From Edaphobacter lichenicola (GTDB lineage: Bacteria > Acidobacteriota > Terriglobia > Terriglobales > Acidobacteriaceae), in contig NZ_JACHDY010000005.1 in NCBI RefSeq assembly GCF_014201315.1, positions 1-64,000 of the forward strand: DNA of 64,000 bases. The letters run 5' to 3'. The notes under the pieces are model-generated. The model was not told where the DNA came from. It ran no database searches and saw only the letters and a list, made by a program, of their open reading frames with translations. Shown in pieces: positions 31,138-59,598 of the stretch (position 1 is its first letter; each line of letters begins with the position of its first letter). The position numbers were made by a program, and so were the translations under genes.

Positions 31138-31205
31138 CGTCGTCTCGACCGAAGCTGTTCACAGTCTCATCGTGAACGGCGCAGTGGAGAGATCCTGTAT
31201 TTCGT
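31138..31205 (+). repeat. Covarying-stem hairpin repeat, copy 1
   Basis: Conserved flank TCTCGACCGAAG, variable stem GTTCAC/GTGAAC around the conserved loop AGTCTCATC, then the conserved flank GCAGTGGAGAGATCC. Six copies occur in the window with different but self-complementary stems. This one lies in the 424-base gap between the PNGase A-like gene and the LLM oxidoreductase gene. Confidence 0.85.
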
Positions 31206-31308
31206 CTTTGCCGCAGGGGTGCACGATTTTGGTGCAGTGAGCACACCATGAATCAAATCCCCTACCCTCGCATCAACCTAAGAGACAATCAACTCTGAGG
31301 GACAACCG

Positions 31309-32361
31309 ATGCAGATCGGCATTGACAGCTTCGCCGCACTCGTTCCAGACCCCATCACCGGCCAAACCGTCACAGCGCAGCAGCGCATCGCCCATCTCCT
31401 CGAAGAGATCAGGCTCGCCGATGAAGTGGGCCTCGACCAGTTCGGCCTCGGCGAGCATCACCGCACTGAGTACCTCGACTCCGCCCCCGCCGTCATCCTC
31501 GCCGCCGCCTCCTCCATCACCAAAACCATCCGCCTCACCTCTGCCGTCACCGTCCTCAGCGCCGCCGATCCCGTCCGCGTCTTCCAGGAGTTCGCAACCC
31601 TCGACCTCCTCTCCGGCGGCCGTGCCGAAATCGTCGCAGGCCGCGGCTCCTTCATCGAATCCTTCCCTCTCTTCGGCCTCAAGCTCGAAGACTACGATGA
31701 CCTCTTCGCCGAAAAGCTCGACCTCCTCCTCGCCCTCCGCGAAGGCAACAACATCCATTGGAAAGGCAAACACCGCGCCGCACTCACCGGTCAGGGAGTC
31801 TTCCCGCGTCCGCTGCAAAACCCGCTGCCCGTCTGGCTCGGCGTAGGTGGCACCCCGGAGTCCTTCATCCGCGCCGGCATGCTCGGCCTGCCCCTCATGG
31901 TCGCCATCATCGGCGGTGAGCCCCACCGCTTCCGCCCCCTCATCGACCTCTACCGCGAAGCAGGCAAGCACGCCGGCCACGCCCCCGACTCCCTCAAAGT
32001 CGGCATCCACGCCCTCGGCTACGTAGCCGACACCGACCAGCAAGCCTCCGACGACTTCTTCCCCGGCTACGCCGAAGCCTTCACCAAGATCGGCAAAGAG
32101 CGCGGCTGGCCGCCAGTCACCCGCAGCCAGTTCGAAGCCCTCCGCCGCCCCACCGGCGCGCTCATGGTCAGCGACCCCGAGACCGTAGCCGCAAAGCTCC
32201 TCAAGATGAACGAAGCCCTCGGCGGCATCTCCCGCATCAGCTTCCAGATGAGCGTAGCCGCCCTCCACCACGACAAACTCCTCCACGCCATCGAACTCCT
32301 CGGCACCCGCGCAGCCCCCATCGTCCGCAAAGCTCTCCTCAAACCCACCGCGACAAAATAA
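31309..32361 (+). CDS. LLM class flavin-dependent oxidoreductase
   Basis: The product of 350 residues has the luciferase-like monooxygenase barrel: the GLDQFGLGEHHRTEYLDSAP segment near residue 41, then LTSAVTVLSAADPVRVFQEFATLDLLSGGRAEIVAGRG, and a C-terminal substrate-binding part. Members use reduced F420 or FMN; the substrate cannot be told. AGGGACAACCG precedes the ATG. The gene is single between repeat-rich gaps. Confidence 0.92.
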   Translation: MQIGIDSFAALVPDPITGQTVTAQQRIAHLLEEIRLADEVGLDQFGLGEHHRTEYLDSAPAVILAAASSITKTIRLTSAVTVLSAADPVRVFQEFATLDLLSGGRAEIVAGRGSFIESFPLFGLKLEDYDDLFAEKLDLLLALREGNNIHWKGKHRAALTGQGVFPRPLQNPLPVWLGVGGTPESFIRAGMLGLPLMVAIIGGEPHRFRPLIDLYREAGKHAGHAPDSLKVGIHALGYVADTDQQASDDFFPGYAEAFTKIGKERGWPPVTRSQFEALRRPTGALMVSDPETVAAKLLKMNEALGGISRISFQMSVAALHHDKLLHAIELLGTRAAPIVRKALLKPTATK

Positions 32362-32597
32362 CGCGACGAAATAAATCGAGAAGGTGTAGCTACGCCGCAT
32401 CCCTGATGGCGAGACATACCCTCCCCGATTCCCCGCATCCCAAAGCCAGACACTCGAAATAAGCAAAAAGATGAGATGCTGTTGGGGCGCGCAGTCAGCC
32501 ACTCCTCTACGCCGCCAGCAAGACTGCTCCAAAGCACTACTGCAAACTCTTTCCCGTCCGGGCCCCCAAGGCGCTGTCGATGTTGGAGGACTTTGGT

Positions 32598-34877
32598 ATG
32601 TCGCTGCACCGAAGAAAAAATCACACCCGGCTCCTGCCTCTCGCACTTCTCTTCGCCGCCAGCATCGCGCACAGCCAGACCCCGGAAGCAAATCCCGCAC
32701 CCCCTCCCGCACCCCAGACAACCCAACCCAACGAAGCCTCACCCGTCCTCCGGCACCACCCCCGCGTCGCCCTCGTCCTCGAAGGCGGCGGAGCCCTCGG
32801 CTTCGCTCACATCGGCGTCCTCCAGTATCTTGAGCAGCATCACATCCCCATCGACCTCATCGTAGGGACCAGCATGGGCGGACTCGTAGGCGGGCTCTAC
32901 GCCACCGGCCGCAGCCCCGACGAGATCCGCAACCTCGTCCAGAACATCGACTGGGACAGAGCCATCGGCGGCCGCACTCCGTTCCCCGATCTCTCCTACC
33001 GCCGCAAACAGGATCGCGTCGAGTACCCCAACCGCCTCGAGTTCGGCCTCCGCCACGGCCTCTCTCTCCCCGAAGGCCTCAACACCGGCCAGCAGGTCGG
33101 CCTCATCCTCGACGCCGCCACCCTCGCCGACTACAACCTCAAATCCTTCGACGACCTCCCCACCCCCTTCCGCTGCGTCGCCACCAACATGAACACCGGC
33201 CGCGCCCACGTCTTTGACAACGGCTCTCTCGCCCGCGCCCTCCGCGCCACCATGTCCATCCCCGCCCTCTTCGTCCCCGTCGTCATCGACGGCGTCACCT
33301 ACACCGACGGCGCAGCCGTAGACAACCTCCCCGTCGACGTCGCCAAGGCCAACGGAGCCGACATCATCATCGCCAGCTACCTCGACAACACCGGCGGCCC
33401 GCAGACCACCCCAGGGTCTTTCCTCGCCACCACCGGAAACTTCGTCAGCATCGCCATCGCCGCCAACGAGATGCGCAGCCTCGAAGCCGCCGACATCCTC
33501 ATCACCTCCAAACTCCAGGGCTTCACCAGCACCATGTTCCCCAAATCCGCAGAGATCATCCCAAAAGGCGTGACCGCCGCCGAAGCCAAAGCAAAACTCC
33601 TCGACCGCTTCTCCGTCTCCGACGCCGAGTGGGCCGCCTACCGCGCCCAGCGCAACTCCCGCCGCCAAGCCCAACCGCCCAATCCACAATTTGTAACCGT
33701 AGCAGGTGTAAATACCCCTGCCGCCCTCGAGATCGAGCGCAGCCTCCGCCAGATCATCAACCAACCCATCGACACAAAGTTCCTCGACCAGGAGATGACC
33801 CGCTACGTAGGCTACGGCACCCTCAACGCCGCCGGCTACACCATGATCGACCGCGACGGCACTCCGGGCCTGAACATCAACACCTACCCCCGCTACAACG
33901 GCCCGCCCTTCCTCGACCTCGCCATCAACATCGACGGCTCCGACACCCAGGACGTCCTCTTCGGCATGGCCGGCCGCATCATCTTTCAGAACCTCGGCGG
34001 CTTCCGCTCCGAGTGGCGCACCGACGCCTTCTTCGGCTACTCCTACGGCGTCCGAAGCGAGTACTACCGCCCCTTCACCCCGCACAGTCAGTTCTTCTAC
34101 GCGCCCCGCGCCTACGCCACCAGCACCCGGTTCGACTTCTACAACGAAGGCACCAAGACCTCGCAGTATCAAATCAACCAGAGCGGTGTAGGCTTCGACG
34201 CAGGCTACACCTGGAAGCGCAGCGCAGAACTCCGCTTCGGTCAGGACGAGTACTGGTACTCCGTCACCAAGCGCATCGACTTCGACAACCTCTCCATCCC
34301 GCCCCAGCAGCAGAGCGTCACCTCCCTGCGTTTCACCTCCTACAACACCGACAACTCCGTCCTCCCCTTCCGCGGCGTCAACACCTTCCTCCGCATCGAA
34401 CGCCATGAACCCTCCAAAGGCAACGATCCCTTCACCCTCGCCGAAGCCCGCGTCGCCGCCTACCTCCCCCTCACTGCAAAGGACTCCGTCTTCCTCACTG
34501 CTAGCGGAGGCACAGCCTTCGGCGCACCGCCCGAGGTCACCGACCTCCAGGGCTTCCCTCTAGGCGGACCCTTCCGCCTCGGCTCCTACGGCCGCAACGA
34601 GCTACTCGGCACCCAGTACTGGCTCTTTCAAGGAGGCTACGAGCGCAAGATCTTCCAGCTCCCACCCCTCCTCGGCGAAGGCGTCTACGCCGTCGGATTC
34701 TTCGAAGGCGGCAAGGTCTACAACAACCTCAACGCCGCCGACGAACTGGAGTCCGAAGCCTACGACGGCAGCTTCGTCCTCGTCACCCGCACCGCGCTCG
34801 GCCCCATCTACATCGGCGGAGCCTCCGGCAACAACGACCATCGCAAGTGGTGGTTCGGCCTCGGCCACGTCTTCTAG
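32598..34877 (+). CDS. Patatin-like phospholipase fused to an outer-membrane barrel (type Vd autotransporter)
   Basis: The product of 759 residues has a signal peptide (ASIAHSQ), then a patatin domain with the oxyanion motif EGGGALGFAHIGVL near residue 60, the nucleophile in VGTSMGG near residue 92 and the DGA catalytic motif near residue 238. After this come a POTRA-like segment (TVAGVNTPAALEIERSLRQI, about residue 365 onward) and a C-terminal barrel domain with many Tyr/Phe-rich strands, ending in F. This is the layout of PlpD/FplA-type autotransporters, which put a lipase on the cell surface. ATG at 32598 follows TTGGAGG; an upstream start at 32580 is possible. Confidence 0.88.
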   Translation: MSLHRRKNHTRLLPLALLFAASIAHSQTPEANPAPPPAPQTTQPNEASPVLRHHPRVALVLEGGGALGFAHIGVLQYLEQHHIPIDLIVGTSMGGLVGGLYATGRSPDEIRNLVQNIDWDRAIGGRTPFPDLSYRRKQDRVEYPNRLEFGLRHGLSLPEGLNTGQQVGLILDAATLADYNLKSFDDLPTPFRCVATNMNTGRAHVFDNGSLARALRATMSIPALFVPVVIDGVTYTDGAAVDNLPVDVAKANGADIIIASYLDNTGGPQTTPGSFLATTGNFVSIAIAANEMRSLEAADILITSKLQGFTSTMFPKSAEIIPKGVTAAEAKAKLLDRFSVSDAEWAAYRAQRNSRRQAQPPNPQFVTVAGVNTPAALEIERSLRQIINQPIDTKFLDQEMTRYVGYGTLNAAGYTMIDRDGTPGLNINTYPRYNGPPFLDLAINIDGSDTQDVLFGMAGRIIFQNLGGFRSEWRTDAFFGYSYGVRSEYYRPFTPHSQFFYAPRAYATSTRFDFYNEGTKTSQYQINQSGVGFDAGYTWKRSAELRFGQDEYWYSVTKRIDFDNLSIPPQQQSVTSLRFTSYNTDNSVLPFRGVNTFLRIERHEPSKGNDPFTLAEARVAAYLPLTAKDSVFLTASGGTAFGAPPEVTDLQGFPLGGPFRLGSYGRNELLGTQYWLFQGGYERKIFQLPPLLGEGVYAVGFFEGGKVYNNLNAADELESEAYDGSFVLVTRTALGPIYIGGASGNNDHRKWWFGLGHVF

Positions 34878-34922
34878 AGCAACGCGCAGTTGGTGTAGAG
34901 CAACGCCGCAGTTGGTGTAGAG
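34875..34922. repeat. Tandem 21/22-bp direct repeat at the patatin gene's 3' end
   Basis: TAGAGCAACGC(C)GCAGTTGGTG occurs twice in tandem, and the first copy starts with the gene's stop codon TAG. The second copy carries a one-base insertion. A further TAGAG follows. Confidence 0.8.
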
Positions 34923-35085
34923 TCGTCTTGGCCTTTTGTTTGTCATTCCCGAAGGGAATCGGCGTTTGCAGTCTCACCACCATCAGGCAAAATTGCCATA
35001 ACGTTATTCCCTTGACACCGCTTCGCCAACGCCAAGTAGACTGGCCTATCAGCCGAAGCAGCATACCGTAAAGATCAGGAGAAGC

Positions 35086-35994
35086 ATGAATCCCTCACGT
35101 CGTCTCTTCCTGCAGCAGTCCGCCGCCGTCAGCCTAGCCTCCCTGTTGCCCTTCCGTTCTGCGTTCGGCGAAACCAGCATGCCCATCGGCATCCAGCTCT
35201 ACACCGTGCAGGACGAGCTGAAAAAGGACGCCGTCGCCACCCTGCACGCCCTCGCAAAGATCGGCTACCGCGAGGTCGAGTCCTTCCCCCTCCAGGACAT
35301 CACCGCCGCGCAGATGCGAACCATGCTCGACGACGCCGGCCTCAAATGCCCCAGCGCGCATCTCTTCTTCGGCGTGGCCGACAACGCCCAGCTCTTCGAC
35401 CAGGCCAACGCCCTCGGCGCCCACTACGCCGTCAGCTCCGTCCTCCTTCCCAACACCCTCCAGGGCGCCGACCTCCCAAAGATGATGGACATCATCAAAG
35501 CCTTCACCCTCGACGACTTCAAAAAGATCGCCGCCAAAGCCAACGAGATCGGAGCCCAGGCCCAGAAGGCCGGCCTCCAGTACGCTTATCACAATCACAA
35601 CTTCGAGTTCCGCGACTACAGCGGCCACACCGGCTACGAGATTCTGATCAAAGAGACCGACCCCAAACTCGTTAAGTTCGAGCTCGACTGCGGCTGGATG
35701 GTCACCTCCGGCAACAACCCCATCGACTACTTCAAAAAATATCCCGGCCGCTATCCCCTCATGCACGCCAAGGACTTCCCCGCCGACACTCCCGTCACCA
35801 CCACGCTCGGCGTCGACCCCAACCACCGCCCCACCGAGATCGGCCGCGGTCACATCGACTTCAAACCCATCATCGCTGCCGCAGAGAAGTCAGGCCTCCA
35901 GCACATCTTCGTCGAACAGGATCCACCCATCGAAGGAATGACCTCGCTCGAAGCCGTAGGCGTCAGCTACGAGGCACTCCGTCCCCTCGTCTAA
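35086..35994 (+). CDS. Tat-exported sugar phosphate isomerase/epimerase-like protein
   Basis: The product of 302 residues starts with a twin-arginine signal, SRRLFLQQSAAVSL, so it is probably exported folded. The rest is the xylose-isomerase-like TIM barrel: IGIQLYTVQDELKKDAVATL, then YHNHNFEFRD and ELDCGWM metal-binding strands and EIGRGHIDFKPII. Relatives act on sugars or related polyols; the substrate is unknown. AGGAGAAGC precedes the ATG. Confidence 0.9.
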   Translation: MNPSRRLFLQQSAAVSLASLLPFRSAFGETSMPIGIQLYTVQDELKKDAVATLHALAKIGYREVESFPLQDITAAQMRTMLDDAGLKCPSAHLFFGVADNAQLFDQANALGAHYAVSSVLLPNTLQGADLPKMMDIIKAFTLDDFKKIAAKANEIGAQAQKAGLQYAYHNHNFEFRDYSGHTGYEILIKETDPKLVKFELDCGWMVTSGNNPIDYFKKYPGRYPLMHAKDFPADTPVTTTLGVDPNHRPTEIGRGHIDFKPIIAAAEKSGLQHIFVEQDPPIEGMTSLEAVGVSYEALRPLV

Positions 35995-36105
35995 ACAAAA
36001 AGCGTCCATCCTCTAAATAAGAAAGATCGTCCTCAAGAAAGATCGCAAACGCATCCCGCAAACCAATCCGCATCCTATATCCAGCACGCTCCAGAGGGGG
36101 GAAAC

Positions 36106-36294
36106 ATGGAAACAGAGGAACTGGTCGAAAATCGCCGCTCTATGAGCAAGCTGATCCTGTTCGCAACCATCGCATCGGGAGTCATCGCAGCCTACCTGAT
36201 GTACCGCCGCGGCGAACCGCTGGGAACCATCGCGAAACAGGCCATCACAAATCCCATCGGCTCACTGATGACCGAAGTAAAAAACAAGCTCTAA
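36106..36294 (+). CDS. Small single-span membrane protein, 62 residues
   Basis: The gene has a strong AGAGGGGG site before its ATG. The product has an acidic N-terminal tail, one hydrophobic span (LILFATIASGVIAAYLM, about residues 16-32), then a basic stretch and a tail ending in EVKNKL. I recognise no family; such small proteins are common in acidobacteria. A role in the cell envelope is a guess. Confidence 0.7.
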   Translation: METEELVENRRSMSKLILFATIASGVIAAYLMYRRGEPLGTIAKQAITNPIGSLMTEVKNKL

Positions 36295-36363
36295 ATATCT
36301 CAAACCCAGGTTGGGAAGATACGGGTCTCTTACGTCTCGACCCGAAAACCTGTCCACAACTAA

Positions 36364-36435
36364 GAAATGCGTCATGTCGATGGGAACTAAGAAGTACGCA
36401 ATCTCGATCGGGACTAATAAAATGCGTCGACCGGA
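36364..36435. repeat. Degenerate tandem repeat, about 29 bp
   Basis: The pattern AATGCGTCATGTCGATGGGA then ACTAAG is followed by a second, divergent unit (TACGCAATCTCGATCGGGAC, TAATAA) and the start of a third (ATGCGTCGAC). It lies in the gap before the rhodanese gene and has no coding support. Confidence 0.6.
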
Positions 36436-36487
36436 GCCCAGCACTTCGCCTTTGCCGTTGTTCGTTCTTCCATCCCTACCCAAAACA

Positions 36488-36552
36488 TCGTCATCTCGAC
36501 CGAAGTCACGCAGTCTCACCGCGTGACGCAGTGGAGAGACCCCCGCATTTTT
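36488..36552 (+). repeat. Covarying-stem hairpin repeat, copy 2
   Basis: The same flanks as copy 1 (CATCTCGACCGAAG and GCAGTGGAGAGACC) enclose a stem CACGC/GCGTG around the loop AGTCTCACC. It is followed by TTGCAG hexamer-type sequence. Confidence 0.88.
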
Positions 36553-36626
36553 GCCTTTGCAGTTGCTTGTTTTCCCTCAAATAAGGCCGGCTAGTCTTTA
36601 CAAGATCTCTTGAACTCTGGGACAGG

Positions 36627-37070
36627 CTACGTCGCCGTGTCCAGGTGAAAAGACTCGGTGTAGGCCTCCACCGGATATCCCTTCTCCTTCCACGCGGCAA
36701 GCCCGCCCTTCAGCAGCTTCACGCGTGTAAAGTTCAGCGCACGCGCCTTGCCCAACACCATCTGACTGGTCTCATCGTCGCCGCCCGTGCAATAGATCAC
36801 TGAGTGCTGATCGCGAGGAAACGCAGCCGTTCGCCCTGCAATATCCTTAGGCGCGATCCTCGTCGCGCCGGGAATAATCTCAGGATGCGCCAGAAAGTCC
36901 AACGGCTGGCGCACATCGTAGAGCAGAATCTTCTTCGCCTTCAGCAGCGCATACAAAGCCTCAGGCTCAATGCTCTTCTCCCTCACCTCGCGCCCGGCAA
37001 GAACGCGCCGCACGACCCACCCAAGGACCAGAACGCAAAGCACCGCAACAACGATAGCCGTCACGCTCAT
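36627..37070 (-). CDS. Membrane-anchored rhodanese-domain protein
   Basis: The product of 147 residues has an N-terminal membrane span (TAIVVAVLCVLVLGWVV) and a rhodanese domain: LLYDVRQPLDFLAHPEIIPGATRI near residue 49, and an active-site loop containing the Cys in VIYCTGGDDETS near residue 91. The loop differs from the common CRSGxR form, so sulfurtransferase activity is likely but not certain. ATG at 37070 follows GGAGGAC; the open frame upstream runs through a family-1 repeat and is rejected. It lies just downstream of the DUF2461 gene, with a family-1 repeat between them. Confidence 0.85.
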   Translation of the reverse strand: MSVTAIVVAVLCVLVLGWVVRRVLAGREVREKSIEPEALYALLKAKKILLYDVRQPLDFLAHPEIIPGATRIAPKDIAGRTAAFPRDQHSVIYCTGGDDETSQMVLGKARALNFTRVKLLKGGLAAWKEKGYPVEAYTESFHLDTAT

Positions 37071-37141
37071 CCCGTCCTCCACGTATAGCCAGATTAGATG
37101 TACGCAACCCAAAGCCAGTTGTTGCGCAGCTAATTCGAAAT

Positions 37142-37239
37142 CCGACCAACGGGAGGACCGAAGCACCCAACCCACCCAGAAAAGGGTACACAAGTCACGA
37201 AGTGACCGCTCTCCGCGCAGGAGGCCCGTCCGGCAGGAC
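37142..37239. repeat. Family-1 intergenic repeat, one unit
   Basis: A reverse-orientation unit: CCGACCAACGGGAGGACCG, then GGGTACACAAGTCACGAAGT, CGCGCAGGAGGCCCGTCCGG and CAGGAC. It ends eight bases from the stop of the DUF2461 gene. Confidence 0.88.
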
Positions 37240-37247
37240 ACCGGTCT

Positions 37248-37940
37248 TTAAAAGAGAGACCTCTTAGGCTTACCAACCAGCGGAGTATTCAGCAGCCGAA
37301 TCAAAGGCGCAGCCACCCTGAACCGCTCCACCACATCCTTCAGCAGCCCAGGCGAAGTAGCCCGCTCCACCGGCAGAGTAGCCGACAATCCCCACTGCTT
37401 GCACATGATCAAATCAATCGCCGGATCATCCGCAGCAAACCCCTTCGGCGGCCGCGTCAGCGACAGCGTCTCGGTCTCTTGCATCAATGACCGCAGCTTC
37501 TTCCCCGCCATGATCCTGCGAAACTCCAGATGATGATCCACCAGGTAGCGCCGTATCGCCAGCAGCTGCTCCCGCTCCGGCATATAAACCCCGGCGGCGA
37601 TCAGCACGTCCGTCGAGCTCACCTGCAGATAGAACCCGCCCCCCGAGGTCTTCTGCAGACCATCCCTCGCCCACCACGCCGAAACATGATGTTTGTAAGG
37701 CCGCTTGTCCTTGCTGAAGCGAATGTCACGGTAGATCCGCATCAGGATCTTGTTGGCTGGCCGCACGTGCTCCGGCGAAAACTCCGCCATCGCCTCATTC
37801 ACCTCGCCGATCAGCCCCAGCATCGGCTCCTTCAGCTGCTTCTCGTAGACGTCCTTGCGCTCTCCAAACCACTCGCGGTCGTTGTTCTTCTTCAGCCCCC
37901 GCAAAAACTTCAAAGCCTCATTCGAAAATTGTGTCGCCAT
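37248..37940 (-). CDS. DUF2461 family protein
   Basis: The product of 230 residues matches the DUF2461 family: FLRGLKKNNDREWFGERKDVYEKQ at the start, then RIYRDIRFSKDKRPYKHH (about residues 67-84) and GGGFYLQVSSTDVLIAAGVYMP. Members are cytoplasmic proteins of unknown function. It is well conserved and likely expressed, but no role can be assigned. Confidence 0.88.
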   Translation of the reverse strand: MATQFSNEALKFLRGLKKNNDREWFGERKDVYEKQLKEPMLGLIGEVNEAMAEFSPEHVRPANKILMRIYRDIRFSKDKRPYKHHVSAWWARDGLQKTSGGGFYLQVSSTDVLIAAGVYMPEREQLLAIRRYLVDHHLEFRRIMAGKKLRSLMQETETLSLTRPPKGFAADDPAIDLIMCKQWGLSATLPVERATSPGLLKDVVERFRVAAPLIRLLNTPLVGKPKRSLF

Positions 37941-37954
37941 CCCTCAATCGTAAA

Positions 37955-38016
37955 CGCCATTTGCACTTGTACTTGCCATTGCACTTGTACTTGCCGTTGC
38001 ACTTGTACTTGCCTTG
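37955..38016. repeat. TTGCACTTGTAC tandem repeat
   Basis: Three units of a 18-base pattern TTGCACTTGTACTTGCC(A/G) run in tandem, built from hexamers (TTGCAC, TTGTAC, TTGCCG). It directly precedes a covarying-hairpin copy. Confidence 0.75.
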
Positions 38017-38040
38017 CATTTTGCTCCTTCTTCCCCCAAA

Positions 38041-38103
38041 TCGTCATCTCGACCGAAGTCGCGCAGTCTCATCGCGCGACGCAGTGGAGAGATCCCTGTA
38101 TTT
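38041..38103 (+). repeat. Covarying-stem hairpin repeat, copy 3
   Basis: CATCTCGACCGAAG, stem TCGCGC/GCGCGA around the loop AGTCTCATC, then CGCAGTGGAGAGATCC. It is the most symmetrical copy; an outer ATCTC/GAGAT pair closes the structure. Confidence 0.9.
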
Positions 38104-38138
38104 AGCCGTTGTCTGTTCTTAGCCACTCAGCCACGATC

Positions 38139-38181
38139 CATCGGGTGCCCCATCCATCGCGCACTTTTGCGATGGGTGGGA
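38139..38181. repeat. CCCATCCATCGC hairpin repeat, copy 2
   Basis: Nearly identical to 30938-30979: CATCGGGTGCCCCATCCATCGC, a loop GCACTTTT, then GCGATGGGTGGGA. It forms a 12-pair stem with one wobble. Confidence 0.8.
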
Positions 38182-38224
38182 ATGTAAACTCTTCCTTTTA
38201 TCTCTGTCGTTGCTTGTTCTTTTT

Positions 38225-38450: not shown

Positions 38451-38465
38451 CATGGAAAAATCCAG

Positions 38466-39851: not shown

Positions 39852-39954
39852 CTTTACCTAAGCAGCAGTTCGTGTCGATGCCACTTGAGGGAACAGGTCT
39901 ACCCCTGGATCGAATTCAATCGGAGGAAATATCCTCGAGAACGAACGTCAAAGG

Positions 39955-43882: not shown

Positions 43883-43985
43883 GGATCCTTGCCCTTCGAC
43901 TTCGCTCAGGGTCAGGATGACGGCACGAACAGGCAACGACAAATGCAGCGGTAGCAGCAACAGCAACAGCAACGGCAAATTGCGG
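43883..43985. repeat. CTTCGACTTCGCTCAGGG element and AGCAAC hexamer array
   Basis: GGGATCCTTGCCCTTCGACT, then TCGCTCAGGGTCAGGATGAC is a short interspersed element whose core CCCT...AGGG is self-complementary; degenerate copies occur at 31079 and 59645. It is followed at about 43960 by GCAGCAACAGCAACAGCAAC, an AGCAAC hexamer tract. Confidence 0.6.
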
Positions 43986-43986
43986 G

Positions 43987-44045
43987 GGTTTCTCCACTGC
44001 GCGGACCACGATGAGACGGTGGTCCGCTTCGGTCGAAATGACGAT
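43987..44045 (-). repeat. Covarying-stem hairpin repeat, copy 4
   Basis: In reverse orientation: TCTCCACTGC, stem GCGGACCAC/GTGGTCCGC around the loop GATGAGACG, then TTCGGTCGAAATGACG. The stem is nine pairs and differs fully from the other copies. Confidence 0.88.
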
Positions 44046-48953: not shown

Positions 48954-48972
48954 CCGTAGTGTCATTTTGAGG

Positions 48973-52613: not shown

Positions 52614-52627
52614 TGCTTCGAAGAGGT

Positions 52628-52767
52628 GTCCTGCCGGACGGGCCCCCTGCGCTCGGCCACCCCACAAACGAAGACCTGTTTGCGGGGACCCTGGTTCGGG
52701 CGGTCACTTCGTGACTTGTGTACCTAGTCTGGGCGAGGCGCGCTGCTTCGGTCCTCCCGCTGGTCGG
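52628..52767. repeat. Family-1 repeat unit with hairpin insert
   Basis: GTCCTGCCGGACGGGC starts 15 bases after the receptor gene's stop, and the unit ends with CTCCCGCTGGTCGG. Between the first and second blocks it carries an extra module, CCCCACAAACGAAGACCTGT and TTGCGGGGACCC, forming a near-perfect ten-pair hairpin; the same module is in the copy at 58304. Confidence 0.9.
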
Positions 52768-52775
52768 AATTGGAC

Positions 52776-53150
52776 CTAGTGCTGTGAGAGGGAGAGGGTG
52801 TTGCCGTCGGGGTCGGCGAACCAGGCTACCTTGGCGGTGCCGCCGGGCGCGGTCCAGACGCCGTCGGGACTTTGCTCGAAGTGGGGATAGCGGGTGAATG
52901 TCAGGCCTTTGGCGGAGAGATCGGCTACGGACTTGTGGATGTCCTGGACTTGCCAGCCGAGGATGGTGAAGGGCGCGGGAGTAAAGTTGCCGACGCGAAC
53001 GATGCGGATCATGGTGCCGTTGGCTTCCATGACGAGGGCGAATTTGTCGTCGTCGATGAAGCGCAGGCCGAGGAGGCCCTCGTAGAAGCTGCGGGACTGA
53101 GCGGCGTCGCGGGTGGGGATGAAGGCGATGATGGGCGTTTGGCCTAGCAT
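52776..53150 (-). CDS. VOC (glyoxalase/bleomycin-resistance) family protein
   Basis: The product of 124 residues has the vicinal-oxygen-chelate fold: AFIPTRDAAQSRSFYEGLLGLRF at the start and a C-terminal VAWFADPDGNTLSLSQH with the metal-binding Glu position not clearly seen. Such proteins act as glyoxalases, dioxygenases or drug-binding proteins; no substrate is evident. It is flanked by two family-1 repeats. Confidence 0.88.
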   Translation of the reverse strand: MLGQTPIIAFIPTRDAAQSRSFYEGLLGLRFIDDDKFALVMEANGTMIRIVRVGNFTPAPFTILGWQVQDIHKSVADLSAKGLTFTRYPHFEQSPDGVWTAPGGTAKVAWFADPDGNTLSLSQH

Positions 53151-53209
53151 GGGGACCTCGCTGGATGGCTAGTTTATAGCGATTTTGGGTTGGGTGGGTG
53201 AAAGATTCT

Positions 53210-53304
53210 GTCCTGCCGGACGGGCCGCCTGCGCGGCGCGCGGTCACTTCGTGACTTGTGTACCTTGGGGGGTAGTGACCGGCGCTGGTCCTCCCGTTGG
53301 TCGG
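53210..53304. repeat. Family-1 intergenic repeat, one unit
   Basis: GTCCTGCCGGACGGGC, GCGCGGTCACTTCGTGAC, TTGTGTACC and CTCCCGTTGGTCGG in order, in the gap between the VOC gene and the MscS-like gene. No hairpin insert. Confidence 0.9.
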
Positions 53305-53319
53305 AAGCGGGATGCAGGT

Positions 53320-54528
53320 CTAGTGGTGGTCGGTTTGTTGCAGGGGATTTGCGAGCCTCTGGTCCTGCGGTTGGGCAGAGCTGTCTGGGCGGGAGGCGAA
53401 GCGGGTGGTGGGGAAGGCTGCGGGGTAGTTCTGCTGGATCCAGGCGGTCATCTTTTCGCGGACGAGGCAGCGGAGGTCGAAGTTTTCGCTGGAGTTGCGC
53501 GAGCTCATGAGGCAGCGGAGCTCCATGGAGCGGTCGGTGAGGTTGGTGACCTGGAGGCCGCAGACCTGTTTGTTCCAGAGCGGCGAGGGGTGGACGATGG
53601 ATTCGAGTTGCTGTCGGAGGGCTTCGACGGGGATGGAGTAGTCGACGTAGAGGAAGGCGGTGCCCATGATGTCGGAGGACTCGCGGGTCCAGTTCTGGAA
53701 GGAGTTTTCGATGAAGTAGCTAAGGGGCACGATGAGGCGGCGGAGGTCCCAGATGCGGATGACGACGTAGGCGGAGTTGATCTCTTCGATGCGGCCCCAC
53801 TCGCCCTGGACTACGACGACGTCGTCGATGCGAATGGGTTCGGTGACGGCGATCTGGAGGCCGGCGAAGAAGTTGGCGGCGGTGGATTTGGCGGCGGTGG
53901 CGAGGATGAGCGAGGCGATGCCGGCGGAGGCGAGGAGGCCGGAGCCGTAGTGCCAGATGCGCGGGTCGTTGAAGGTCCAGAGGAGGGCGCCGATGTCGAT
54001 GATGACGACGAAGCTGATGAGCATGCGGCGGAAGAGCTGGAACTGGGTGTGGACGCGGCGGGCCTGGATGTTGTTTTCGGCGTTGAGGTCGTAGCGCCGG
54101 AGCATGACGGACTGGAGGACGTAGATGCAGCCGACGGCGAACCAGCCGAGGGCGGCGACCATCGCCATGATGAAGCACTGGCGGATGGTGTCTTCGAGCT
54201 TGTCGGAGAGGCCGGGTACGGCGGGGAGGATGAGGAGGAGACAGGTGAGGAAGAAGATCGCGCGGGCGGGTTTGCCGAGGTAGCGCTGAAGGCCCCAGCC
54301 GAAGCTCTTGCTCTCCTCTTCTTTGCGGCGCAGCAAGCGAAAGAGGGCGTAGTGGACTACGTTTGCGAGCACGATGGCTGCGCAGAGCAGGAAGATGACG
54401 AAGAACCAGGTGTGACGGAAGTGCGGAACCTCCAGCGCAAGCAGATTCAGATGCGGGGTAGGGAGGCTGGGCGGGCTGAGCGCGAGTTGGTTCAAGGTTG
54501 CTCCGTCTGCTTCGCTGTTTAGATGCAA
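53320..54528 (-). CDS. MscS-family mechanosensitive ion channel
   Basis: The product of 402 residues has about five membrane spans and the MscS pore and beta-domain: GSGLLASAGIASLILATAAKSTAANFFAG (around residue 207, Ala/Gly-rich pore helix), then AVTEPIRIDDVVVVQGEWGRIEEI and the C-terminal cytoplasmic part. It releases solutes on membrane tension. The N-terminal tail of about 35 residues is Leu/Pro-rich. Start at 54528; later starts are possible. A family-1 repeat follows the stop. Confidence 0.92.
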   Translation of the reverse strand: MHLNSEADGATLNQLALSPPSLPTPHLNLLALEVPHFRHTWFFVIFLLCAAIVLANVVHYALFRLLRRKEEESKSFGWGLQRYLGKPARAIFFLTCLLLILPAVPGLSDKLEDTIRQCFIMAMVAALGWFAVGCIYVLQSVMLRRYDLNAENNIQARRVHTQFQLFRRMLISFVVIIDIGALLWTFNDPRIWHYGSGLLASAGIASLILATAAKSTAANFFAGLQIAVTEPIRIDDVVVVQGEWGRIEEINSAYVVIRIWDLRRLIVPLSYFIENSFQNWTRESSDIMGTAFLYVDYSIPVEALRQQLESIVHPSPLWNKQVCGLQVTNLTDRSMELRCLMSSRNSSENFDLRCLVREKMTAWIQQNYPAAFPTTRFASRPDSSAQPQDQRLANPLQQTDHH

Positions 54529-54578
54529 CGAAGCTGAGAGCAGTTTAATATCTGGTGGCTCGGCTGGGTGTGACAGCG

Positions 54579-55490
54579 CTATTTATGTTGAAGGTGGTCG
54601 AGGCTGTCGAGGACCGCCTTCTCGAGGGCGATGCGCTGGTCGGAGTAAGAATGGTCGGTTGCCATGTGGATTGCGGTGACCTCCTGATTGCCGGCTTTAT
54701 GGAGGGCTTCAACGAAGGCGTCGTTGGAGGGCGCGAGGCCGTCGTCGGAGGTGATGACGAGCATGGGACGGGTGGCTAGTTTCGGAGCGAGCGCGGGGAT
54801 ATTCCATGCGGTTGCGTTGGCGACGACCTCTTTGGCGAGGCTTTCGGGGGTGCATCCGGCGAGCGGGGCCATGCCTTCTGCAGCGAGGTGTGAGGCGAGA
54901 GCGGCGACTGCTGCGTCTCTCTGATCGGGTTTGATGGATTGAGCTCTGTCGACGCCCATATCGGCCGCGGAGATGAGGCCGACGGCTTTGATGGCGGGGT
55001 CTTGTGCGGCGACGTAGCGGGCTATGAAGCCACCCATACTGTGGCCGACGAGAACGATAGAGGACGGATCGGAGTGAAGCTTCTTTGCGTTGGCGGGGTC
55101 GCGCAGGTAGGCGATGGCGGAGTGGGTGTCCTCGATGGAGTGGGTGAAGGAGAAGTCGCCGGGGGAGCCCCAGGAGCCGCGGTAGTCGAAGTAGACGACG
55201 TCCCAGCCGTCGCGGCGGATGGCCTGTGCGAGATCGAGATTTTTCTCGTTGCCGGGGAAGCCGTGAAGTAGAAGGACGACGGGATGTGGGGCCGGGCCGG
55301 GTGCGATGTAGGCGAGCGCGTTGAGGAGGGCGCCGTGACTTGGGATTTGAAAGGTTTCGAAGGCGGCGGGGTTGGTCTTGTCGTGGGCGGGGTCGGTGGT
55401 GATGGCGGTGGGAAGCTGCTGGGCATGGAGCGGATGGAAGAATGCCGCACAGAGAAGCATGCTCGCGGCAATGATCTTGAGGGTAGACAT
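54579..55490 (-). CDS. Secreted alpha/beta hydrolase
   Basis: The product of 303 residues has a signal peptide (to FFHPLHAQ, about residue 24). The alpha/beta-hydrolase motifs follow: the oxyanion region VVLLLHGFPGNEKNLDLA, the nucleophile in VLVGHSMGGFIARYVA near residue 150, an Asp in VITSDDGLAPS and the catalytic His in IHMATDHSYSD. It is probably a periplasmic peptidase or esterase; the substrate is unknown. Confidence 0.88.
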   Translation of the reverse strand: MSTLKIIAASMLLCAAFFHPLHAQQLPTAITTDPAHDKTNPAAFETFQIPSHGALLNALAYIAPGPAPHPVVLLLHGFPGNEKNLDLAQAIRRDGWDVVYFDYRGSWGSPGDFSFTHSIEDTHSAIAYLRDPANAKKLHSDPSSIVLVGHSMGGFIARYVAAQDPAIKAVGLISAADMGVDRAQSIKPDQRDAAVAALASHLAAEGMAPLAGCTPESLAKEVVANATAWNIPALAPKLATRPMLVITSDDGLAPSNDAFVEALHKAGNQEVTAIHMATDHSYSDQRIALEKAVLDSLDHLQHK

Positions 55491-55535
55491 GCGTTGATTG
55501 TAGATAAGGTACGGTAGTCCTCATAGAATGTATTC

Positions 55536-56234
55536 ATGAGAATCCATAATCAGCTTAGGTCAAGCTGGATAGTGACCGCCTGCTGGATATGGACAATGAC
55601 GTCTGTAATGTCGGCTCGAGCGCAAGGGATTCCCGGGAATGACAGCGGTTGGAGGAACTTATCTAGGGTGAGCCACAACAGCTCATTGATGTTCATCAAG
55701 AAAGACGCTACCTGTGAGAAAGGGGCTGTTCTGAAAGTTGATGCATCAAGCGTAACGATAGCCCAATTTGATAAGAAAGACGTGACTATTCAGATACAGG
55801 ACTTACTGCAGGTTGGTGAGGGTGGTCCGCATAACCTTGTATTCAGTGCGCGATCATCTTGGAGCGATGTAATCGGTGCAAAACCTGGTCACGCAGAAGC
55901 ACTTTCGATTACAAAGAAAGATGGCACGAAATACACGGGCAGACCAGTTTCAGTCTCGGGTACCGAGATTACTCTCAAGGGCCTTACGAGGAACGAAACA
56001 CTTGCGAAGGCAGACATAGCAACCATCGATTACATACGCCAAAAGCCATTGACGGACACGGAAGAGTACCTGGCGCAGGAAGCGCCCTACCTGCTGTTAT
56101 TTTCTCCAAAGAGTTACGTAGTTGCTATGGGGCTGTCACCCACGCTGGATGTGCGCCTGTTCGATGTATCGAAGCCCGAGGACAACTCACAAGTGGGTTG
56201 TAACCAAACGAAATCTGAGCCGCCTCTAAAATAG
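55536..56234 (+). CDS. Secreted hypothetical protein of atypical composition
   Basis: The product of 232 residues has a signal peptide (to SARAQ, about residue 30) and is rich in Lys, Asp, Ser and Thr. It shows an [22 protein letters not shown] segment and a second, similar [27 protein letters not shown] beta pattern (about residues 125-150), which hints at two small beta domains. Base composition is clearly lower in GC than neighbouring genes. No family is recognised. It ends five bases before mnmG. Confidence 0.65.
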
Positions 56235-56238
56235 AACT

Positions 56239-58287
56239 ATGAGCTTTTCGGAACAGTTCGATGTGGTGGTGGTGGGTGCGGGACACGCTGGTTGCGAGGC
56301 GGCGATGGCGGCTGCACGGATGGGGCTGCGCACGGCGATCTTTACGTTGAATCTGGATCTGATTGCGCAGATGAGTTGTAACCCCGCGATTGGTGGGATT
56401 GCGAAGGGGCACCTGGTGCGTGAGGTGGATGCGCTGGGTGGCGTGATGGGTGAGGTTGCGGATGCTACGGGGATACAGTTTCGTCTGCTGAATACCTCGC
56501 GAGGGCCGGCGGTGTGGTCGCCGAGGGCGCAGTGCGATAAAGCGCTCTATCGCGTGAAGATGCGCGAGGTGCTGGAGGAGCAGAAGAATCTCTTCATCAA
56601 GCAGGCTGAGGTGGTGGACCTGATTGTGGAGGACAGCGAGTCGGCGAGTCAGCGAGTTGGCGAGTTTTTGCCGACCCGTGTGGTGCGGGGGTTGAGGCTG
56701 CGAGATGGGCGGGTGATTCATGCTGCGGCGACGATTGTTACGACAGGAACGTTTCTGAATGGGTTGATTCATTGCGGGGAGCAGCAGTACACCGCCGGGA
56801 GAAGCGGGGAGCCGGCGAGTGTGTTGCTGGGGGAGGCGCTGAAGCGGCTGGGGCTGCGGGAGTGCAGGCTGAAGACGGGGACGCCGCCGCGGCTCGATGG
56901 CCGCACGATTGACTGGAGTCAGTTTCAGGAGCAGCCGGGGGATGAAGACCCGACGCCGTTCAGCTTTAGATCAGCGAGTCAGCGAGTTAGCGAGTCAGCG
57001 GGTCAGCATTGGGTGCCGGAGTTGCGGCAGATCAACTGCCATATCGCGCATACGACACCGGAGACGCTGCGGCTGATTCGGGAGAATGTGCATCGGTCGC
57101 CGATGTATACGGGGCAGATTGAGGCGATTGGGCCGCGGTACTGTCCTTCGATTGAAGACAAGATCGTGCGGTTTCCGGAGAAGACGCGGCACCAGTTTTT
57201 TCTGGAGCCGGAGGGGTTGAATACGCATGAGGTCTACATCAACGGCATGAGCACGAGCCTGCCGATGGAGATTCAGGCGGCGATGGTGCGGTCGATTCCT
57301 GGGCTTGAGAACGCAGAGATGCTGCGGCCGGGGTATGCGATTGAGTATGACGCGATCGATCCGACGGAGCTGGATCGTACGCTGCGGGTGAAGTCGTTTG
57401 CGGGGCTTTATCTGGCGGGGCAGATCAACGGCACGAGCGGGTATGAAGAGGCTGCGTGCCAGGGATTGATGGCGGGGATCAATGCGGCGCTGGCGGCGCG
57501 GGCAGCCCTGAGCGGCGAACCAGAGGCGGGCTTTACGCTGGATCGGACGGAGGCTTACACGGGTATTTTGATTGATGATCTGATCAGCAAGGGGACGAAT
57601 GAGCCTTACCGGATGTTTACTTCGCGGGCGGAGTATCGGCTGCACCTGCGGATCGACAATGCGGATAGCAGACTGACTCCGCATGGGCGGCGGCTGGGGC
57701 TGATCGATGATGCCGCGTGGGCGGAGTATGAGGCGAAGCAGGCTCGGGCGGCGGCGTTTGAGAGGCTGTTGGGTTCGGCGCGGGTGCGGGCGGAGGAGTT
57801 GCCGATTGCGCTGCGGGAGAGGCTGGATGGTGACGCGGCTGGGATCAGCGGGCAGACGTTTGCGCAACTTTTGAAGCGGCCGGAGGTGCCGATCGAGGAG
57901 GTTGCACCGGTGCTTCGGGAGAGGCTGCGGGATGCGGAGGAGGTGCTGGGCGGTTGGGTGGCGGCGATGGATGCTGCGGGGGATGCGAAGCTGCCGGCGT
58001 GGGTTCGGAATGAGATGAAGACGGTGGAGACGGAGATTAAGTACTCGGGGTATCTGGACCAGCAGCGACGCTCGATGGAGAAGATGCGGAGGGCGGAGAA
58101 GCGGGGCATTCCGGGGTGGTTCGATTATTCGACGGTGAGCGGACTTTCGAGCGAGATGAAGGAGATTCTGACGAGGGTGCGGCCGCAGACGATTGGTCAG
58201 GCTAGCCGAATTGCTGGGGTTACGCCTGCTGCGGTTAGTTTGATTCATGTCTTTATCGAGATTCAGGGCAGGGCTCGGGTGGCTTAG
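56239..58287 (+). CDS. mnmG: tRNA uridine-5-carboxymethylaminomethyl modification enzyme MnmG
   Basis: The product of 682 residues binds FAD and acts with MnmE on wobble uridine. The motifs [20 protein letters not shown] at residues 10-29 and [23 protein letters not shown] near residue 50 are diagnostic, and the C-terminal helical tRNA-binding domain is present. It is longer than the usual 620 or so residues, partly because of two in-frame octamer repeat tracts (56636-56667 and 56974-57005), each coding for SASQRV(G/S)E-like sequence. MnmE is encoded 17 kb upstream. Confidence 0.96.
56636..56667 (+). repeat. Octamer tandem repeat inside mnmG, tract 1
   Basis: Four units: GCGAGTCG, GCGAGTCA, GCGAGTTG, GCGAGTTT. 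The tract lies between residue blocks VVDLIVEDS and [10 protein letters not shown], a surface loop in the family. Confidence 0.92.
56974..57005 (+). repeat. Octamer tandem repeat inside mnmG, tract 2
   Basis: Four units: GCGAGTCA, GCGAGTTA, GCGAGTCA, GCGGGTCA. It lies between PTPFSFR and the PELRQINCH block. Both tracts are 32 bases, of the same octamer. Confidence 0.92.
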
Positions 58288-58303
58288 GTTTTTGTGCTCG
58301 GGT

Positions 58304-58427
58304 GTCCTGCCGGACGGGCGCCCTACGCGTGGCCACCCCGCAAACGAAGACCTGTTTGCGGGGACCCCGGTTCGCGGCGGTCACCTCGTGACGGGTATAC
58401 CCCTTCGGTTGGAGCTCCCGTTGGTCG
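58304..58427. repeat. Family-1 repeat unit with hairpin insert
   Basis: Starts 17 bases after the mnmG stop with GTCCTGCCGGACGGGC and ends CTCCCGTTGGTCG. It contains the module CCCCGCAAACGAAGACCTGT followed by TTGCGGGG, whose ten-base arms CCCCGCAAAC/GTTTGCGGGG are perfectly complementary. Confidence 0.9.
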
Positions 58428-58489
58428 CTGCATTGAAATGTAACCGTTGGTGGGGTTTGGGCGTCCAAGGTGGGAAGGGTTGGTGCGTG

Positions 58490-59188
58490 ATGAGTTCTGC
58501 TTGGAAGACAGGTTTGATCGTGCTGGGTGTGGTGGTGGTCGCTTTGATCTTGTTTGGAAGGGGAAAGAGCATGGTGATGGGGGCGGAGAGGAAAGAGCCG
58601 ATTCCGGCTCCTGCGATGGATGAGCCGCATGTTGCGGCAACGCATGAGACTGCGGTGTTTGCAGGGGGCTGCTTCTGGGGCGTGCAGACGGTGTTTCAGC
58701 GGGTGAAGGGGGTTACGGCTACGACTGCGGGGTACTCGGGTGGATCTGCGTCTACGGCTACTTATGATCAGGTTTCTTCAGAAGGCACGGGACATGCGGA
58801 GTCGGTGAAGATTGTGTTTGATCCGGCGAAGGTTAGCTATGGGACGCTGCTGCGGATCTTCTTTTCGGTGGTGCATGATCCTACGCAGTTGAACCGGCAG
58901 GGGCCGGATGTGGGGACTTCTTATCGTTCGGTGATTTTTTACACGTCGCCGGAGCAGGAGAAGGTGGCTAAGGCCTATATCTCTCAGCTGGATGCGGCGC
59001 ATGTGTTTCCCAAGCCAATTGTGACTGAGGTTACGCCGCTGAAGGCCTTCTATGACGGGGAGGACTATCACCAGGACTATGCGGAGAAGAATCCTAACAA
59101 TCCGTACATTCAGGTCTGCGATGTGCCGAAGATGGCGGCTTTGAAGCAGCAGTTTCCTGATCTTTTTCAGGATTACAAGCACAAATAA
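58490..59188 (+). CDS. msrA: Peptide methionine sulfoxide reductase MsrA, membrane-anchored
   Basis: The product of 232 residues has an N-terminal membrane span (TGLIVLGVVVVALILFG) and then the MsrA domain. The catalytic Cys is in FAGGCFWGVQTVFQRVKG near residue 61, with the YSGGSASTATYDQVSSEGTGHAE segment following. It repairs oxidised Met, here probably on the periplasmic side. The open frame continues upstream through a family-1 repeat and mnmG's end, so I take the ATG at 58490; a GTG one codon earlier is also possible. Confidence 0.93.
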   Translation: MSSAWKTGLIVLGVVVVALILFGRGKSMVMGAERKEPIPAPAMDEPHVAATHETAVFAGGCFWGVQTVFQRVKGVTATTAGYSGGSASTATYDQVSSEGTGHAESVKIVFDPAKVSYGTLLRIFFSVVHDPTQLNRQGPDVGTSYRSVIFYTSPEQEKVAKAYISQLDAAHVFPKPIVTEVTPLKAFYDGEDYHQDYAEKNPNNPYIQVCDVPKMAALKQQFPDLFQDYKHK

Positions 59189-59209
59189 TTTTGGGCTGGT
59201 GGGGCTGGG

Positions 59210-59375
59210 GTGAAGGTCCGTTTTTGCAGGGGTTTTTGCGAAATCGTGGTGTCTGGACGTGGTTTTTTGGGTGGCTGGACGTGGTGGAATGTGTGGTGAA
59301 CGTGGTGTTGATGCACCACACATTCTGGCCGCTGAAAATGCGCCAGGTTTTCGGGATTTATTTTGGCCTGTGGCT
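59210..59375 (+). repeat. GTGGT-rich dispersed repeat, copy C
   Basis: TTTTTGCGAAATCGTGGTG, GACGTGGTTTTTTGGGTGG, TGTGTGGTGAACGTGGTG, GCCGCTGAAAATGCGCCAGG and a TTTCGGGATTTATTTTGG block follow in the order seen in copies A and B, with substitutions. Confidence 0.72.
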
Positions 59376-59397
59376 GGGAAAGGCGAAAATGCGGGGG

Positions 59398-59455
59398 GGC
59401 TCTCGACTGCATTACGCGATGAGACTGCGTGACTTCGGTCGAGATGACGGTTTCT
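59398..59455 (-). repeat. Covarying-stem hairpin repeat, copy 5
   Basis: Reverse orientation: CTCTCGACTGC, stem ACGC/GCGT (partial outer pairing) around the loop GATGAGACT, then GACTTCGGTCGAGATGACGG. It is one of two copies in this 516-base gap. Confidence 0.82.
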
Positions 59456-59540
59456 TGGGGTTGGGCTGGGTGGGGGCACGGGCGAGATGCGGACGGATAC
59501 CGCAGAATGCATCGGTTCGCTGCAACTGAGAGATGTGGCC

Positions 59541-59598
59541 GCAATCCACTGCGTGACAGACGGTGAGACTGTCTGTCGCTTCGGTCGAGAGGACGATG
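59541..59598 (-). repeat. Covarying-stem hairpin repeat, copy 6
   Basis: Reverse orientation: ATCCACTGCGT, stem GACAGAC/GTCTGTC around the loop GGTGAGACT, then GCTTCGGTCGAGAGGACG. The stem sequence is again different and fully paired. Confidence 0.85.

Follow-up and report, generated by a model that had tools for sequence, protein, structure and literature searches.

Background

Repetitive extragenic palindromic (REP) sequences and their relatives are the closest described counterparts of the repeat treated here, a dispersed hairpin family found in a 64,000-nucleotide stretch of Edaphobacter lichenicola DNA (contig NZ_JACHDY010000005.1, positions 1 to 64,000; this whole stretch is called the window) and named the CGACC family below. 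Three papers describe these counterparts. In REPINs, conserved ends enclose a hairpin, and compensatory changes are common (PMC3116915). REP families of the CGTC class contain subsets with a different stem, loop or tail; the 2013 survey of these repeats left open which enzyme, if any, mobilises them (PMC3733652). Cleavage by the transposase TnpAREP needs a given loop and a mismatch-free stem: the reaction is crippled by a mismatch in the stem or by an altered loop, and moderately affected when the whole stem is exchanged for its complement; transposition of IS200/IS605 elements is strand-specific (PMC8266576).

A preliminary description of the window had reported six hairpins with a fixed loop, conserved flanks and variable, complementary stems, had proposed selection for a structure possibly recognised by a REP-type transposase, and had known of no described element with this design. 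The last statement is not borne out, since REPINs, the CGTC REP subsets and the requirements of TnpAREP already cover the logic of the design. The CGACC family is most likely a new form of the known transposase-linked palindromic repeats, and the design itself is not new.

Anatomy of the six window copies

All six copies were found where they had been reported, at 31138, 36488 and 38041 in forward and at 43987, 59398 and 59541 in reversed orientation, when the sequence of the window was re-read. The nonamer AGTCTCAYC occurs six times in the window against 1.14 expected, a count that none of 100 shuffles reached, though the occurrence at 34970-34978 (AGTCTCACC) has no stem and is a chance match rather than a copy. 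The flank CGACCGAAG is present in all six copies. The loop AGTCTCA(T/C)C ascribed to every copy is exact in five, the copy at 43987 reading CGTCTCATC, and the second flank, given as GCAGTGGAGAG, is exact in the three forward copies and varied in the others, with a GAGAA end at 43987, GCAGTCGAGAG at 59398, and GCAGTGGATTG at 59541, where a second module starts. Stems said to differ in every copy, yet to remain complementary, do so with the exceptions that the copies at 36488 and 59398 have the arm TCACGC in common and that the 3' side of the latter has decayed. Further features that can now be added are an outer stem that also covaries (TCTC/GAGA, as against TTTC/GAAA at 43987), a common head CGTCAT, a tail A(C/T)CCC, and a 3' module in the copy at 59541. 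The general architecture is CGTCAT-YYY-GACCG(A/G)A-(stem-loop-stem')-GCAGTGGA-RRR-A(C/T)CCC, preceded by a leader that is C-rich and then A-rich.

Copy 1 (31138..31202, + strand; 82.1 bits with the covariance model R1 described below) consists of the head CGTCGTCTCGACCGAA, the stem GCTGTTCAC/GTGAACGGC around the loop AGTCTCATC (31163-31171), and the tail GCAGTGGAGAGATCC. Copy 2 (36489..36549, + strand; 72.9 bits) has the stem GTCACGC/GCGTGAC and the loop AGTCTCACC (36512-36520), and a different stem is present at the orthologous site in E. lichenicola M8UP30 (genome G014). Copy 3 (38042..38102, + strand; 74.1 bits) has the stem GTCGCGC/GCGCGAC and the loop AGTCTCATC (38065-38073). On the - strand, copy 4 (43979..44043; 89.4 bits) combines the outer stem TTTC/GAAA with the stem GCGGACCAC/GTGGTCCGC and the loop CGTCTCATC (44010-44018), the decayed copy 5 (59388..59449; 46.6 bits) sets the arm TCACGC against GCGTAA around the loop AGTCTCATC (59418-59426), and copy 6 (59531..59595; 55.0 bits) has the stem GCGACAGAC/GTCTGTCAC and the loop AGTCTCACC (59562-59570). 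The same strand carries, at 59492..59544, a 3' module (TTGCGGCC...GGTATCCGTC), an optional part with a length of about 54 nt; in most copies that have one it stands between GTGGA and AGA(C/T)CCC, and in copy 6 the AGACCCC end is absent. A pseudoknot between GTCTC of the loop and GAGAC of the 3' flank was rejected by eye because copies with TTTC/GAAA retain the GTCTC kind of loop.

Family size and distribution

A pattern with both flanks and a free middle matched 50 copies in the genome to which the window belongs (G000; the window is positions 1-64000 of its contig C5), and the reversed pattern matched none. The covariance-model search that the preliminary description had proposed was carried out with R1, which was built from 25 aligned copies and applied to no more than 150 candidates per genome at a threshold of E<=0.001. 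It gave 98 matches in G000, two of which (C3:163515 and C3:163605) belong to one tandemly expanded copy, an inner hairpin having been amplified within it (C3:163515-163670), and the weakest few of which may be decayed or chance matches. R1 matched 17 of 31 genomes. All 17 belong to a genus represented by 19 genomes, and the 12 from another family gave no match; counts ranged from 1 to at least 150 per matching genome (105 in G014, 49 in strain X5P2, genome G002, and 14 in G011); G012 and G013, both good assemblies, had none. A family-level search of 120 genomes with E<=1e-9 and stricter filters found matches in seven, three of the same genus and four of other genera, among which G096 had 30; under the stricter search G064 had 5. 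Among the best 80 of 93 matching stretches in named records, those inspected that were proper hairpins came from Edaphobacter, Granulicella and other Acidobacteriaceae/Acidobacteriales; 23 named loci titled outside Acidobacteria were dismissed as chance matches with no proper stem. The density is low, about one copy per 50 kb, and most copies inspected are intergenic with unrelated flanks. Plasmid and phage collections contained no match to one 91-base query, and among the papers listed in literature searches none describes the family.

Among 189 context-distinct copies of the commonest type, pooled over genomes, the inner stem is 9 bp long in 140 and 7 bp in 49, and the loop is AGTCTCATC in 67, AGTCTCACC in 21 and a variant in the remainder. 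These copies contain 65 different 5' arms, and so are not the recent duplicates of a few sequences that the preliminary description had named as an outcome that would contradict it. Some members of the family have a loop like GCACTTT, others no more than a minimal tip, and stems, outer triplets and the 3' module are found in many different combinations.

Covariation and the folding strand

Stems that failed to covary genome-wide were the other outcome that would have spoken against a structure built around a fixed loop, but the stems do covary, on one strand and around a loop that is nearly fixed. In the 25 aligned copies, 98.3% of the inner-stem cells pair, as against 84.1% after shuffling; 59 cells are changed on both sides (16.2 in shuffles), and the covariation score is 0.402 (0.118 in shuffles), none of 500 shuffles being as high in any of the three. 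Slid alignments scored at most 0.089, a control biased towards the alignment, which was chosen for conserved flanks and in which the stem was read from the same copies. Two coarser counts were not in excess in these copies, namely pairs showing a double change (6 vs 5.3 in shuffles; 226/500) and further pair types (15 vs 13.9; 170/500). The two outer triplets complement each other in 176 of 185 elements (mean 88 and maximum 104 in 2000 shuffles), in the combinations CTC/GAG (120), TTC/GAA (23), CCT/AGG (20), CCC/GGG (8), TCT/AGA (3) and TCC/GGA (2).

Imperfect pairs were used to examine which strand folds. In 100 distinct arm pairs selected by a Watson-Crick-only filter there were 41 G·T, 18 A·C and 26 other non-Watson-Crick pairs (G·T vs A·C, p=0.004), counts that pool related genomes and in which not all events are independent; the G·T to A·C ratio was 39:14 and 39:12 under stricter filters and 41:15 (99 pairs) under a filter favouring G·T. 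The excess of G·T indicates that the strand as written folds, either as RNA or as single-stranded DNA (ssDNA). Since the copies lie on the C-rich strand, as set out below, neutral mutation would be expected to give A·C at least as often as G·T.

A hairpin acting as RNA within transcripts, for example in mRNA stability or processing or through a protein-binding loop, and conserved in place would account for this excess. No T run follows the hairpin in the copies inspected, however, and no family of Rfam 15 reached its gathering score in the window, where the sole match near copy 1 (E up to 5) was a chance-level long non-coding RNA; the distribution is also patchy, as the lack of matches in G012 and G013 illustrates. 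A function as RNA is unlikely in our judgement. Because of the missing T run, an intrinsic terminator in particular is unlikely, and no clear enrichment at the 3' ends of genes was seen.

Covariation can also be produced by mutation itself, through template switching in imperfect palindromes (quasipalindrome correction). The near-perfect stems and the tandem amplification of the inner hairpin at C3:163515-163670, a sign of slippage, are what such a process would leave, but it predicts equal loss of G·T and A·C, which is at odds with the observed 41 to 18, and it explains neither the 9-nt loop common to two flank families nor the link to transposase genes described below. We regard it as slightly less probable even than a role as RNA, and the comparison of orthologous sites bears on it further.

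Changes at orthologous sites

For 72 of the 99 G014 copies examined, collinear flanks fixed the corresponding position in the G000 stretches. For 52 G000/M8UP30 site pairs, in which orthology is not proven in every row and some flank identities are low, the interiors were identical in 10, differed in the loop only in 6, differed in length in 20 and were unparsed in 3; one-sided pair changes were found in 11 (15 pairs) and double changes in 2 (4 pairs), three of the four double-changed pairs falling at one site that resembles a module swap. Some of the differences consist of whole modules, such as the 3' module at C2:901552/C1:1279365, the inner module at C1:821113/C2:791202 and a minimal as against a filled tip at C1:1534254/C2:158826. 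At C1:954750/C2:642694 the left flank is shared but the stems behind it differ, and in the adjacent upstream element, too, a minimal tip in one genome stands against a filled one in the other. A single clean change from a G-C to an A-T pair, of the kind that quasipalindrome correction would generate, was seen at C1:579219 vs C5:169993; against that process, one-sided changes outnumber double ones by 15 to 4 at orthologous sites of equal length.

On the basis of this tally, the variety of stems seems to arise mainly from module exchange and from many source copies rather than from compensation in place. The earlier argument that random drift would break the stems, and that selection must therefore act on them, is thus half right: compensated single-pair changes are rare, and orthologous sites mostly differ in other ways. 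Module exchange in place is a second route to stems that appear to covary, which calls for caution in reading covariation in dispersed repeats as selection on RNA.

Another conceivable reading is that the copies are old passengers without any mobility of their own, which segmental duplication and gene conversion alone have spread. Neighbours resembling tandem duplicates (C2:558660 and C2:558789 in G014 vs one copy in G000; C1:938845-939403 in G000) are in line with such spread, as is the way in which intergenic blocks change as wholes, but the unrelated flanks of most intergenic copies inspected and the 65 different 5' arms are difficult to reconcile with it, and it appears improbable, about on a par with quasipalindrome correction or marginally below it.

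Strand polarity

Every copy examined (98 of 98 in G000; 99 of 99 in G014, out of its 105) is on the strand that is locally rich in C, the skew being calculated from 3 kb to either side; in G000 it averages -0.266 on the strand of the copy. By comparison, 502 of 657 predicted genes (simple open reading frame scoring) are on the C-rich strand and 155 are not. A regular-expression search gave 79 matches on the C-rich strand and 7 off it, the seven being chance matches by eye. Adjacent copies share a strand in 54 of 70 cases in G000 and 61 of 83 in G014, as a consequence of local base composition (0 of 10,000 random draws were as high).

Flanking predicted genes are co-directional with the copy in 142 of 170 cases (58 +/+, 16 +/-, 10 -/+ and 1 -/-; 11 further copies lie inside predicted open reading frames), as would be expected of an element acting in transcripts. 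In 98 of 98 copies, however, the strand agrees with the base-composition domain, and its relation to gene direction is loose; the share of copies in divergent intergenic regions equals the background (11/74 vs 57/373), and that in convergent ones is hardly higher (15/74 vs 60/373).

Strict polarity might further reflect polar chromosome signals such as KOPS or Chi, whose orientation is kept by selection, given that all 197 copies tested, including species-specific ones, follow the local skew. Against this, G012 has no matches despite a skew that is mostly of one sign, though weaker (200 kb sampled), the density of about one copy per 50 kb is low, and GGCTTTAGCC, which forms the core of REPs beside two transposase genes of G000, is equally polar (19 of 19 on the C-rich strand), so that polarity is not special to the CGACC family. 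We consider a signal of this kind very improbable. The polarity of the 197 copies suggests strand-specific insertion, and it draws attention to the strong skew domains of these genomes. In samples from across G000 and G014 the skew of these domains is about +/-0.27, and individual genes reach a GC3 skew of 0.7; the sign changes repeatedly along a contig, irrespective of the direction of single genes. Along C1 the sign changes at least 7 times, judged from stretches around matches, and a flip in the window near 40-43 kb is common to G014, displaced in G002 and less clear in G018.

Association with RAYT genes

The REP-type transposase link suggested in the preliminary description is supported by the neighbourhood of the REP-associated tyrosine transposase (RAYT) genes of the genus, where the same loop hairpin recurs within other flanks. 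The search for Y1-type genes proposed there gave three Y1_Tnp matches in G000. Two of the genes, L055 (C3:221161) and L056 (C1:481201), score as REP-associated tyrosine transposases, and their REPs take the form GGGGCTTTAGCCCC or CGGCTTTAGCCG; they were ruled out as the source of the CGACC family, having REPs of their own with GGCTTTAGCC. The loop TTTA found at these REPs is described as essential for the Marinomonas enzyme (PMC8266576). The third gene, L054 (C2:338361), is a RAYT gene cut short at its 3' end beside a dispersed repeat with the loop AGTCTCACC, copies of which occur on both sides. NF047646 (REP-associated tyrosine transposase) scored above its cut-off in all seven proteins tested.

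RAYT genes of the genus are often framed by repeats of the form GGGTGCCCCAT-stem-loop-stem'-GTGGG with an AGTCTCAYC-like loop, several of them as inverted pairs, and their stems differ too (TTCATGC, CCTTCGC, ATCTGGC, CCATGAC). The transposases framed in this way have, as far as readable, H(V/I)H, RYYDFN and Y(I/M)HRNPV in common. In 32 RAYT loci of the genus (101 kb), some of which adjoin or overlap each other, 19 loop hairpins were found in 13 loci, by eye all in GGGTGCCCCAT-like flanks; as L357 shows the same hairpin as L346, a loop hairpin is near the gene at 12 of the 32. None was found in 29 RAYT loci of other genera, and other DNA from G012 and G014, amounting to 340 kb, contained four, one of them by eye in a GGGTGCCCCAT-like flank. 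Inverted GGGTGCCCCAT-like pairs were flagged at 9 of 61 RAYT loci, seven of them with the loop. In stretches of G000 and G014 chosen around CGACC-family matches, 51 AGTCTCAYC hairpins with a perfect stem of at least 6 were counted, of which 37 belong to the CGACC family, 13 to the GGGTGCCCCA family and 1 to neither; shuffled words of AGTCTCATC averaged 0.07, and the highest, 4, was itself a loop variant.

At one locus, L364 (G010), a CGACC-family member lies about 0.9 kb from the RAYT gene, and at about 1850-1950 of this locus a GTCATCCTGAGC-type relative of the family directly adjoins a RAYT-flanking GGGTGCCCCAT-like repeat. The remaining GTCAT heads near RAYT genes of the genus were judged by eye to be chance matches.

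Comparison with described elements

The likeness to the CGTC REP superfamily (PMC3733652) lies in the CGTC end (also TGTC), the adjacent AT on the 5' side, subsets that differ in stem, loop or tail, and the lack of an abutting transposase gene. In 197 copies the terminal CGTC (or TGTC, CCTC) has frequencies of C 0.89, G 0.96, T 0.94 and C 0.98, positions that the model itself includes, and beside it the 5' A and T have 0.96 and 0.98; on the 3' side A-T stands in ATCCC copies and A-C in ACCCC copies. In contrast to the single stem of 8-9 bp with a loop of 4-5 nt in that superfamily, the stem here is interrupted and nested, the inner part having 7 or 9 bp and a 9-nt loop in the commonest type, and where head-to-head dimers predominate in the superfamily, G000 matches less than 3 kb apart lie on one strand. 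The host phylum is not among the five named for CGTC repeats in that paper.

REPINs resemble the family in their conserved ends, freer hairpin middle and common compensatory changes, but are described as two inverted REPs with conserved 16-mers (PMC3116915), whereas here the ends complement each other only in part and do not form inverted copies, and the loop hardly varies. In the TIRYT/TIRtron systems, which include a sharply defined acidobacterial group, Y1 genes are flanked by inverted repeats that are also dispersed (PMC3733652). The GGGTGCCCCAT repeats with AGTCTCAYC-like loops are alike in this, and the inner module of the CGACC family is of the same kind as these hairpins around Y1 genes and in inverted pairs; the family differs in its other flanks and in having no abutting RAYT gene. 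TnpAREP of Marinomonas and Stenotrophomonas recognises loop bases and a mismatch-free stem and depends less on stem sequence, with another loop and tetranucleotide than in the CGACC family (PMC8266576); recognition in Edaphobacter is inferred. The very small mobile repeats of cyanobacteria, the subject of a 2008 study by Elhai, are reportedly likewise very small and dispersed.

Proposed origin and mobility

The fit of the CGTC tag, the REPIN-like logic and the requirements of TnpAREP place the CGACC family among REP-like elements. The explanation that we favour, with a confidence little above even, is that the copies are non-autonomous, CGTC-type REP-like ssDNA elements with a RAYT-type apical hairpin and nested hairpin modules. 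The outer arm pair (CGTCAT-YYY ... RRR-A(C/T)CC) would bear the tag of the CGTC class of REPs, and the tip would be an exchangeable inner hairpin, in its commonest form a stem of free sequence with the loop AGTCTCA(T/C)C, of the same kind as the one flanking many RAYT (Y1, HUH) transposase genes of the genus. This inner hairpin would fold as ssDNA on one strand, where a RAYT-type Y1 enzyme acting in trans might recognise the loop and the perfection of the stem, not its sequence; selection for a given loop and a mismatch-free stem, both of which TnpAREP needs, would keep loops constant while stems covary. Copies would be moved or exchanged as folded ssDNA and afterwards be mostly static or decaying. 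That the mechanism is RAYT-driven and proceeds through ssDNA has about an even chance of being correct. A CGTC-type family whose tip hairpin is like the RAYT-flanking one in the same genus offers a candidate enzyme for the orphan CGTC class.

Several observations weigh against this explanation. No Y1_Tnp match was found in G014 and G002, both 99% complete and rich in the family, nor in G011 or in G064, whose five matches come from the stricter search, as compared with the resident RAYT gene of REPINs and GTAG REPs and the three Y1 matches in G000; conversely, R1 matched nothing in G012 and G013, in which Y1 matches number 2 and 4. Presence of a Y1 gene therefore does not predict the family, and element-rich genomes with no such gene may have lost it recently or may rely on another enzyme. 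No copy abuts a RAYT gene at the 32 loci of the genus, and GTAG, which known TnpAREP uses and which stands beside the palindrome in REPINs and GTAG REPs, is absent from the consensus of the 25 copies and of their flanks, a minority reading GTAGTGG. Neither clean duplications of a target site nor precise empty sites were seen; whole intergenic blocks differ, with no clean junction. Copies had diverged less than the sequence around them at 22 of the 25 orthologous sites retained (medians 0.052 vs 0.154 and 0.182), many flanks aligning badly and 23 of 48 alignments having been left out for a poorly aligning flank. This lower divergence may point to function in place and, like the rarity of intergenic (-,-) placement (1/74 vs 24/373), which could hint at a tie to transcription, would suit a role as RNA.

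A more specific and more tentative proposal, which we would put well short of an even chance, is that the copies are composites of a hairpin within a hairpin, in which the tip of a CGTC-type REP serves as a docking site where RAYT-type ssDNA hairpins are plugged in, swapped and stacked in place. Docking would explain both the loops common with RAYT ends and the kept outer arms, and as part of the same tentative proposal the shared polarity would mark the strong and conserved GC-skew domains in Edaphobacter.

Other repeats in the window

Next to copy 1, a GTCAT-kind element (31071..31110, + strand) has the outer stem TTCC/GGAA and the inner module CACCCTGAGCGCAGTCGAACGG, and a similar module has been gained or lost at an orthologous site elsewhere. 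A repeat of the form GGGTGCCCCATC-stem-GCACTTT-stem-GGGTGGGA, of a kind that also flanks RAYT genes, lies at 30942..30979 (+ strand), and a second copy, with the loop GCACTTTT, at 38143..38181 (+ strand). Low-complexity tails of TTTGC/GTTGC units follow many copies on the 3' side (for example at 43900-43990) and often run into the next GTCAT-type element; blocks of tail and elements appear and disappear between species. Another abundant dispersed repeat, GTCACGAAGTGACCGC-stem-GCCCGTCCGGCAGGAC with a covarying stem (for example CCCAC/GTGGG or CTCCC/GGGAG), is present at 37194-37239 and, on the opposite strand, at about 5885-5929. It has the same design of fixed flanks and a variable stem, yet its strand polarity is not strict (88 to 28).

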